Source: Lachnospiraceae bacterium
GTDB lineage: Bacteria; Bacillota; Clostridia; Lachnospirales; Lachnospiraceae
NCBI GenBank assembly: GCA_014804655.1
Contig: JAAUZK010000032.1
Span: 124,001-188,000 of the forward strand
Reading direction: 5' to 3'
Length of the DNA: 64,000 nt
How positions within the stretch are numbered: the first letter of the stretch is position 1; every line of letters starts with the position of its first letter. Of the stretch, positions 43,139-46,225 are shown piece after piece. The notes below the pieces were generated by a model, which was not told where the DNA came from, did not search any database, and worked only from the letters and a program-made list of their open reading frames with translations. The position numbers and the translations under genes are program-made.

Positions 43139-45715
43139 TTATGACAAAGATTGATGTTGGGGCGAATCGTAGTAAGTTTTTTCTGTATTGATGTACAACA
43201 CCGCAAGGATAACAGCACCGAATATTGACAAGATCAGTCCGACGATAAAGCCTTGCGGGATGTACTTTAATTCAATATTGTGGTGCCCGGGGGTGATCGG
43301 TATTACAAGTAGATTTTGTATACTTAAAGGCGTTTCTGCTTTTATTCCGTCCTGCGTCACATGCCATCCTCTTTCCCATGGAATAGAGCATAGTATATAT
43401 GCCGTTTCATTGGTTTCATTTTTGCAGGAAATACTTATGTGTGCGTCGGTATGCATTATAATTTCGGGCGCATGCTTTGTTATGTGTGTGGTATATGCGT
43501 CAAGAAATTCTTGAGATTCGCCGCACACATATATTTCATGTGGAAGCAGTGTTTCATGTTCTTTTATGTAGTAACGTATTTTGATTTTCGTATTTTTTGC
43601 GAAATCACCAAGTATTTTAACATTGTTTAGCTGTTCACTGAGATCTGTTTTTTCTTCGCCAATAAATGCCTCTGCTTTTGTAATGCCGGAATCATTATAT
43701 GAAACATAGACAGCACAATCTTCGATTGTCGTATATTCATATTCGACATAGGCATCCACGGCAGAATCCGTAGCATAGATAGAACCGTCAGGCTGCTCTG
43801 TACAATGAAAAGCAGTTACACAGCTTCCGTGCAGAGTATGGATAATATCTTCAATTTGGTGGCTATCCAGACTGTGATATAGTCTGTTGATATATTGAAA
43901 CGACGGCAAGGCTGTATTTTGCAGTTCTAAAACAGACTGATCAGCCAGGACGGCAAAGGGCAGTGCATTTTCATTTCTATAAAGTTTCATTTCGTCTTCA
44001 CAATCAATTTCAACATATCTACCGTTAGGACAGTCGTTAGAAATCAGGTATTTGATACTGAGCAGAGCGTCGGCGGAGTTGTAGGAGCCCTCATCATAAC
44101 GAATGCCCCAAAGGATACTGTCTGAATAGCCGTAGCCAAAATTATTGGCTATTTTAGAGATTCGGCTTTCTTCTACAGATGTATAAGAGTCTAATCCGTA
44201 GAGATTAAACATAAAAGAGTCATTTGGAGTTCGGAATGCTTGTTTATACATAACGGTTCTATGGGGGAGGGAATCCTTTTTACTCTGTTCGATTAGGGGG
44301 AGAACTGCTTTAGTATAGGCTTGATATTCCGATGTTTTTGCAGAATCGTATTGATTGCATTGTCGATAAAGGTTTTCTGCATTGATAAAAAGTTCCAGAA
44401 ACAGAAGACCGGCAGCAAAGTATATGTTAAGACGTCTGTGCTTCGGCAGTGCGATCAGGAACGTGTAGACAGCCACAAGACCCATATTAAGAATTAAAAC
44501 GGTTATGCTGATGTTTGCAGCAAAATATTGTGTCCTGCACAGTAATAAGCATATAAGAAATATACCGGTAGCAGGAATTGTTATTTTAGATATGGTTTGT
44601 TCCGTTATGGTCTTATAGCCTTTGTATGCAGCGTAGAGCAGTAGAAAAATGTACAGAAAAGCGAAGCGGTGCGGGGAACCTGTCGGATAGTTGAATGCGT
44701 GCCATGCACAGTTCAAATTATAGTGGTTAAAGGAAAAAAGGATAAAACCCGCCATAAGCAGATACAGGATCTTTGATCTTGCGGAGTCTTTACCGTGAAT
44801 TACCCAGCAAACCGTCATGAGCAATGGTAATATTCCGCAATAAATCAGAGGATTTCCATTCGTAATCGGCGTTGGTTCTGTTGTTGCACAAAACATGGAG
44901 TCAATGAGTCCTGCACCTTGAAATATTCTGTGAAAATCGAAGAGGGATGTTATTGAAAATGAGCCTTTACCACGTAGCAATGCAAAAGTCAAAGGCAGTA
45001 TGAGCCACATGGAAAGCATGCCGCCAAGAATAGAATTTAAGAAATAGAGGAGAAATGTCCGGCAGATTTTCATTCTTCCGGGAATGGCAAAGAAATAGTA
45101 CAGAAAGTATAAAACCGAAAAGAGGCATATCATATAACCCATGTAGAAGTTTGTAATAATGGCTAGGGAAAGCAGCAGTGTATAAAGAAGAAATTTCCCG
45201 TTATCGACCAGATTTTCAATGGCTCCGATGATACATGGCAACAGAATTAATGAATCGATCCAGAAAATATTAAACAGATAGCCAATCATGTATGCTGAAA
45301 GGGCATAAGCGGTAGAAAAAATAATTGCCGCCACATCTTCTCGCTTCCTACATAGGAATCTATACATAGTCGTCCCGGCACAGCCGGTTTTTAACAATGT
45401 GACAATCAGAATTCCGGTATAAATGTGTTCTGCATCTGTAAAGTAGAAAATCAAATTAAACGGGCTCATGAGATAGTAAGCGGAAACACTAAGCATATTG
45501 CCGCCGAATGCGCGGGAAAATGTATAGAATGCGGATGCGTTTCCATGCAGAATATCGTGCAGATGTGAAAAGAAAGCGGCATACTGCCAATTCATGTCCC
45601 AGATCAAAAGACTTTCGTCACCAAACGGATACTGTCCCCATACCGCATAAACTCCTAATAAGATTGCAGTAGGTACTGCAAAGGCCATGAGCATATGTTT
45701 TATGGATGTTCTCAT
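43139..45715 (-). CDS. YfhO family polytopic membrane protein
   Basis: Multi-TM N-terminus with SLLIWDMNWQYAAFFSHLHDILHGNASAFYTFSRAFGGNM; large extracellular C-terminal domain. Confidence 0.85.
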   Translation of the reverse strand: MRTSIKHMLMAFAVPTAILLGVYAVWGQYPFGDESLLIWDMNWQYAAFFSHLHDILHGNASAFYTFSRAFGGNMLSVSAYYLMSPFNLIFYFTDAEHIYTGILIVTLLKTGCAGTTMYRFLCRKREDVAAIIFSTAYALSAYMIGYLFNIFWIDSLILLPCIIGAIENLVDNGKFLLYTLLLSLAIITNFYMGYMICLFSVLYFLYYFFAIPGRMKICRTFLLYFLNSILGGMLSMWLILPLTFALLRGKGSFSITSLFDFHRIFQGAGLIDSMFCATTEPTPITNGNPLIYCGILPLLMTVCWVIHGKDSARSKILYLLMAGFILFSFNHYNLNCAWHAFNYPTGSPHRFAFLYIFLLLYAAYKGYKTITEQTISKITIPATGIFLICLLLCRTQYFAANISITVLILNMGLVAVYTFLIALPKHRRLNIYFAAGLLFLELFINAENLYRQCNQYDSAKTSEYQAYTKAVLPLIEQSKKDSLPHRTVMYKQAFRTPNDSFMFNLYGLDSYTSVEESRISKIANNFGYGYSDSILWGIRYDEGSYNSADALLSIKYLISNDCPNGRYVEIDCEDEMKLYRNENALPFAVLADQSVLELQNTALPSFQYINRLYHSLDSHQIEDIIHTLHGSCVTAFHCTEQPDGSIYATDSAVDAYVEYEYTTIEDCAVYVSYNDSGITKAEAFIGEEKTDLSEQLNNVKILGDFAKNTKIKIRYYIKEHETLLPHEIYVCGESQEFLDAYTTHITKHAPEIIMHTDAHISISCKNETNETAYILCSIPWERGWHVTQDGIKAETPLSIQNLLVIPITPGHHNIELKYIPQGFIVGLILSIFGAVILAVLYINTEKTYYDSPQHQSLS

Positions 45716-45754: not shown

Positions 45755-45829
45755 AATAGGTCAAAATCACCCTTTTTAAAATAGGTCAATTTACCCCTAA
45801 TGTCAATAGGTCAGTTTGCCATAATCTAA
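45755..45829. repeat. three direct repeats AATAGGTCA at exact 25-bp spacing
   Basis: ATAGGTCA at 45756, 45781 and 45806; each preceded by A and followed by related A/T + ACCC/GCC. Confidence 0.8.
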
Positions 45830-45919: not shown

Positions 45920-46225
45920 ATGAAACGACTGAATGAAAAAGGAAAATATATGGACCGGCTAAGGAAGTTAAGAAAAGAAAAAGGATACACGCAGATCAAA
46001 ATGCAGCTTTTGACGGGAATCGATCAGAGTGATTACTCAAAGATTGAAAAGGGAAAACGTTACTATACGTTTGAACAGTGCAAGAGGATCGCGCTGGCGT
46101 TAGATACCAGCATGGATTATCTTGCCGGACTGACGGATGATCCGCGACCCTATCCAAGGGGAGGACATGCGCAGTCCGGCAAAAAAATTACATCTGATTC
46201 ATCTGATCCAACAGAGCAATCTTAA
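45920..46225 (+). CDS. XRE family HTH regulator
   Basis: MDRLRKLRKEKGYTQIKMQLLTGIDQSDYSKIEKGKRYYTFEQCKRIALALDTSMDYLAGLTDDP; start may be 45950. Confidence 0.88.
   Translation: MKRLNEKGKYMDRLRKLRKEKGYTQIKMQLLTGIDQSDYSKIEKGKRYYTFEQCKRIALALDTSMDYLAGLTDDPRPYPRGGHAQSGKKITSDSSDPTEQS

Follow-up and report, generated by a model that had tools for sequence, protein, structure and literature searches.

The repeat array lies in an intergenic region of the 64-kb window (the whole stretch of DNA that was analyzed), between a YfhO-family gene on the minus strand and a small XRE gene on the plus strand (Table 1). Pfam families recognized in the neighbors of the array were YfhO, DegV, and nicotinate phosphoribosyltransferase. 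In B. subtilis and Listeria, the YfhO family has a role in lipoteichoic acid glycosylation (PMC5836110, PMC7389260). Exact copies of AATAGGTCA occupy 45755 to 45763, 45780 to 45788, and 45805 to 45813 on the plus strand, 25 and 25 bp apart from start to start, confirming the triple and the exact phasing given in a preliminary description of the locus. That description called them direct repeats. The repeats are indeed exact but not bare, as each opens a longer element (AATAGGTCAAAATCACCCTT, AATAGGTCAATTTACCCCTAAT, and AATAGGTCAGTTTGCCATAAT, respectively; boxes 3, 1, and 2 in Table 1). An imperfect dyad of 17 to 21 bp surrounds each AATAGGTCA copy, with the repeat forming one arm.

Table 1. Predicted features of the array and its flanking genes (window positions)
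Feature	Position	Strand	Basis
Box 3, extra outer predicted operator AATAGGTCAAAATCACCCTT	45755..45774	.	Second-best window match to the cross-species box 1 matrix
Box 1, conserved predicted operator AATAGGTCAATTTACCCCTAAT	45780..45801	.	TAGGTCA exact in 72/72 tabulated operators
Box 2, conserved predicted operator AATAGGTCAGTTTGCCATAAT	45805..45825	.	25 or 26 bp from box 1 at 72/81 loci
Predicted sigma-A promoter toward YfhO, TTGACA-N17-TATTTT	45778..45806	-	Commonest hexamers across loci TTGACA and TATAAT
Predicted extended -10 of the xre promoter, TGCCATAAT	45817..45825	+	CATAAT in 68/71 loci, mostly after TGn
XRE/Cro-like regulator, 91 aa	45950..46225	+	HTH_3, 4.6e-12; AlphaFold model
YfhO-family membrane protein, presumed target	43139..45715	-	PF09586, 2.4e-148

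Within the window, no 9-mer with all four bases other than AATAGGTCA has three equally spaced copies (12 to 40 bp), and no equally spaced 9-mer triple in this range arose in Markov-simulated windows (n = 12). A genome-wide motif search with 25-bp spacing, as had been proposed, was run on the organism's own genome (4.55 Mb, incomplete) and returned the exact AATAGGTCA pair at one site only, that of the array. When the window was scored with a box 1 weight matrix trained on other species, the three AATAGGTCA copies were the top three matches (30.3, 22.9, and 5.2), and the next-best score was 1.1. A search of the same genome for a box 1 regulon found one single-mismatch site elsewhere versus 1 + 1 in the reversed control; because these matches were no better than the control, no wider regulon is claimed.

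The XRE open reading frame (ORF) spans 45920 to 46225, with an alternative opening at 45920. Conservation among relatives starts at the Met of 45950, which gives the 91-residue protein of Table 1. This protein belongs to PF01381 (HTH_3; 46.2 bits against a gathering score of 23), and its AlphaFold model (mean pLDDT of 81.7) has a Cro-like fold in which residues 26 to 33 form the recognition helix. The closest solved sequence is C.AhdI (1e-6); in fold comparisons, C.AhdI and C.BclI ranked high, and the DNA-binding domain of SinR was similar. The RstR family model (NCBIfam NF041951) was matched by 14 of 14 regulators tested, a likeness to that family, whereas the window protein scored 48.5 bits against a cutoff of 80 and was ruled out as a member. 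At its 3′ end, the XRE ORF overlaps the convergent nicotinate phosphoribosyltransferase ORF by 38 bp (46188 to 46225).

Conservation of the probable operator block with the regulator gene

Boxes 1 and 2 make up a conserved block of 45 bp that accompanies the XRE gene and not YfhO. The comparison of orthologous regions called for in the preliminary description was carried out on 81 loci, comprising the window and 80 loci from many Clostridia found by regulator-alignment search. Under strict criteria (box 1, box 2, and CATAAT), the two-box block was kept at 72 of these loci, 63 with 25-bp and 9 with 26-bp spacing. A 24-bp form was present at L066, L078, and L090. At four loci outside the strict set (L085, L116, L118, and L121), the gene comes second, after another XRE gene; the operator is degraded at L079 and lacking at L099. 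The consensus is ATtaTAGGTCAATTtcaCCCTAatgTCAATAGGTCAattTGcCATAAT. Across 62 comparable 25-bp operators, mean information content was 1.1 to 1.8 bits per base within the block versus ∼0.1 to 0.3 in the flanks, which are not conserved. CATAAT preceded the regulator start by a median of 20 nt. Dyad symmetry of the core boxes across the whole family did not exceed its column-permuted null at 95% (0.61 versus 0.63); it was evident only in individual examples, ATAGGTCAATACGACCTAT among them, and in distant families. At L149, L154, L167, L169, and L170 (G161), three tandem XRE-family matches were accompanied by a pair of operator blocks separated by 537 bp, an arrangement that suggests local duplication of the regulator-operator unit.

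The exact AATAGGTCA pair was found in 7 of 61 related genomes, all 7 from the same genus. Searching 77 genomes of the genus with a wider pattern recovered the operator in 10 and an XRE orthologue in 10, with 9 genomes common to both. The regulator is present and the operator degraded in G029; G006 has the operator, and its regulator was not detected. In the latter genome, the two-box operator (L048/L036) lies between two divergent membrane-protein genes and no XRE gene was detected; either the operator is an orphan or its regulator has been lost. Among 391 genomes sampled across the class, 10 had the operator and 14 the regulator, all 10 falling within those 14, with zero matches to the reversed-pattern control. 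No such repeats were found upstream of the 47%-identical YfhO homologues of other genus members. Given the co-occurrence of operator and regulator and the YfhO homologues that lack the repeats, the array is, on comparative grounds, assigned to the regulator and not to YfhO. Of the originally described setting between YfhO and XRE genes, the XRE linkage thus stands; YfhO is incidental, with homologues elsewhere that lack the array and a divergent gene that varies among loci. Viral contigs yielded zero operator matches with either a stricter pattern (CC before ATAAT) or a looser one, and phage records contained only distant relatives of the XRE protein.

The outer copy and the 25-bp geometry in distant XREs

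The outer copy at 45755 (box 3) probably functions as an additional site covering the divergent transcript start. A third outer box is also present in a few relatives (L053/G027, G066, L055/G062, L068, and L115), at 33, 34, or 36 bp rather than 25 bp, and a third dyad also precedes the distant XREs L014 (at 36 bp) and L015 (at 35 bp). These sites, together with the score of 22.9 on the cross-species matrix, argue against a chance or nonfunctional duplication in which the two-box operator alone matters. We consider such a duplication the less likely reading, with two points in its favor: only two boxes are present at the majority of the 81 loci, and the outer copy is 76% identical to the next unit over 25 nt, as in a local duplication.

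Distant small XREs are preceded by tandem palindromes whose arms differ from those above (TAGTAAAGATATTTACTA, TAAGGGAATTTACCTTA, TAGACCAATTTGGTCTA, TAACCTGTTTCAGGTTA, and TAGCGAAATTTTCGCTA). The best palindrome spacing was 25 bp at 12 of 66 such loci (null, 4.5%; P = 4e-5, an optimistic value because the 66 loci are partly related), and these 25-bp pairs often have a TCAATA linker and a divergent TTGAC-N17-TAnnnT. Palindromes of 17 to 19 bp, 25 bp apart and with differing arms, precede the XREs at L014, L015, L019, L196, L198, L202, L205, L213, and L220, possibly constituting a set of orthogonal operators. At L196 (Monoglobus pectinilyticus plasmid 16), two successive XRE genes each have their own 25-bp TAAGGG/CCTTA palindrome pair.

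Covariation of the recognition helix and the half-site

Residue 28, which lies within the modeled recognition helix, is D at 71 of the 71 parsed operator loci, all with TAGGTCA in box 1; it is also D in L108 (VDQSD), a 72nd operator outside the parsed set. Where the residue differs, so does the half-site. With A at this position (L177, Vescimonas fastidiosa) or H (L179), both boxes read TAGGACA, and with E (L168), the half-site is TAGGGGA at 23-bp spacing, in a protein that differs at other positions too. An order-level search of 28 genomes for further helix variants added one new variant. This covariation, in three variants only, is the best sequence evidence pointing to the XRE protein itself as the reader of the repeats.

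Predicted promoters within the probable operator

On the minus strand of the block, TTGACA-N17-TATAAT is the commonest promoter sequence across loci; the window has the near-consensus variant in Table 1. The predicted xre promoter usually has TGn before CATAAT, an extended -10, and no recognizable -35. Box 1 lies over the -10 of the divergent promoter, with its center near -41.5 of the predicted xre start, and box 2 overlaps the xre -10. Box 3 would overlie the point at which the divergent transcript is predicted to begin, and YfhO starts ∼56 nt beyond this putative minus-strand start. Automatic calling gave a divergent ORF with a ribosome site at 55 loci; these calls are approximate, because the one in the window is a spurious 48-aa frame and not YfhO. 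At L104 and L126, where the operator is kept and the divergent promoter decayed, terminator-like sequence of the upstream gene abuts box 1.

The block might mainly be a conserved bidirectional core promoter, with the repeats as promoter elements rather than regulator sites. Consistent with this, it holds the minus-strand hexamers and the plus-strand CATAAT, and the divergent promoter is nearer consensus at loci with a divergent ORF (-10 alone, P = 0.004; both hexamers, P = 0.03). However, a promoter does not require TAGGTCA, which is retained in box 1 at L104, L110, and L126 despite decay of the divergent promoter. The repeat letters also change with the recognition helix, and neither core promoter extends over box 3 or over the extra boxes of relatives. 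We judge this explanation improbable, although the divergent promoter, and not binding, may account for the conservation of some TAGGTCA letters. LytTR, AraC, and response-regulator proteins typically recognize direct repeats at a fixed spacing, so that the sites might instead bind a regulator of one of these types, the XRE linkage being mere neighborhood. This is more improbable still, since the sites track the XRE across families while other neighbors change, and their base changes track XRE residue 28. That the block is an RNA structure or small RNA has nothing beyond conservation in its favor and can practically be dismissed, as it lies upstream of the predicted xre start and reaches no Rfam family at gathering score (best, 22.8 bits versus 67).

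Genes divergent from the probable operator

By the automatic calls at 55 loci, the divergent genes fall into many unrelated groups. The commonest partner, found at 8 loci (L058, L060, L087, L102, L107, L111, L125, and L130), is an 82-aa protein (77 to 82 aa across the group); the L058 member had no match in a Pfam scan, and the protein may be a dedicated target. A 550-aa membrane protein is divergent in four relatives of the window, and other groups comprise zinc-ribbon or membrane proteins, SLOG-type proteins, and secreted proteins. Restriction-modification (R-M) domains were absent from a Pfam scan of ten divergent genes.

Discussion

We assign a probability of roughly 85% to the reading in which the array serves the adjacent small XRE as operator and forms with it an autoregulatory switch like lambda OR or the C-protein systems that would also repress the divergent gene. 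The preliminary description had taken the repeats for regulator binding sites and named the adjacent XRE protein as a candidate, and, as far as sequence comparison can carry it, the proposal holds up well: the operator tracks xre, lies directly upstream of it, and varies with its recognition helix. Conservation, co-occurrence, covariation, and overlap with promoter sequences provide this comparative support; binding, dimer cooperativity, the sign of regulation, and control of YfhO are inferred, as are, from the promoter hexamers, the transcription start sites.

In the proposed switch, dimers of the Cro-like XRE would bind boxes 1 and 2, which are spaced by 25 bp, and, in the window, box 3 as well, the boxes overlapping two back-to-back promoters. 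Occupation of boxes 1 and 2 would turn off the strong divergent promoter (that of YfhO in the window), and occupation of box 3 would place a roadblock at the divergent start site. Binding of box 2, over the xre -10, would result in negative autoregulation. With box 1 alone occupied, near -41.5 of a promoter without a -35, low-level self-activation of xre may be possible, because lambda CI and C proteins activate their own genes from such a position.

C proteins (C.AhdI, C.BclI, C.Esp1396I, and C.Csp231I) are, like the XRE protein, small single-domain HTH_3 proteins. They also have two palindromic sites upstream of the regulator's own gene, activation proceeding from the distal site and repression from the proximal one (PMC4041747). 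Canonical C sites are ∼4 bp apart, and those of C.Csp231I have an 18-bp spacer (PMC4321490). Compared with C-boxes (∼4-bp gap; 18- or 25-bp spacer in the Csp231I/EcoO109I class), the boxes described here are 25 bp from center to center, with a gap of ∼5 to 8 bp. Moreover, the main second promoter is divergent, and no restriction or methylase partner was recognized in the divergent genes scanned. An R-M controller was rejected: the small HTH protein resembles C.AhdI, but a linked R-M gene and C-box spacing were not found.

Like lambda OR with CI and Cro, the locus combines two or three tandem operators over back-to-back promoters with one repressor gene and one target. The lambda OR operators are spaced ∼23 to 24 bp apart. 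The XRE array differs in being chromosomal, in having no C-terminal cooperativity domain, and in its variable target gene. A lambda-type phage switch was also rejected, the tandem operators over predicted divergent promoters being present but a phage or prophage location not (no viral-contig match). SinR carries a SinI-binding domain, which the XRE protein lacks, and its operators differ, although the DNA-binding folds are alike. Because of the missing R-M partners, the different spacing, and the lack of a phage location, we do not file the array as a C-protein or lambda system and class it as a putative new family of autoregulated XRE operators. The type of switch is already known; the literature searched yielded no description of the XRE family or its operators, the operator sequence returning no bacterial-regulator paper among the matches listed and searches for tandem XRE operators nothing relevant.

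An operator pair before the same regulator in dozens of gut bacteria, with varied neighbors, looks like a portable genetic switch. Gut Clostridia have many small XREs without known targets, and here the regulator, its operator, and the likely target promoter can be read from the sequence. The natural variants hint at a recognition code relating residue 28 to the fifth base of TAGGTCA. We give even odds to a wider pattern, in which the small Cro-like regulators of Clostridia would be a large family of mutually orthogonal natural switches on one DNA scaffold, with arms and helix coevolving and divergent targets freely exchanged. The shared scaffold would be TA-code-TAnnnTCAATA-code, with dyads 25 bp apart and a divergent TTGAC-N17-TAnnnT promoter inside. 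If true, this pattern would offer ready-made regulator-operator pairs of differing specificity for bacteria with few genetic tools, and it would show one switch attached to many accessory genes, including those for YfhO-type membrane proteins.
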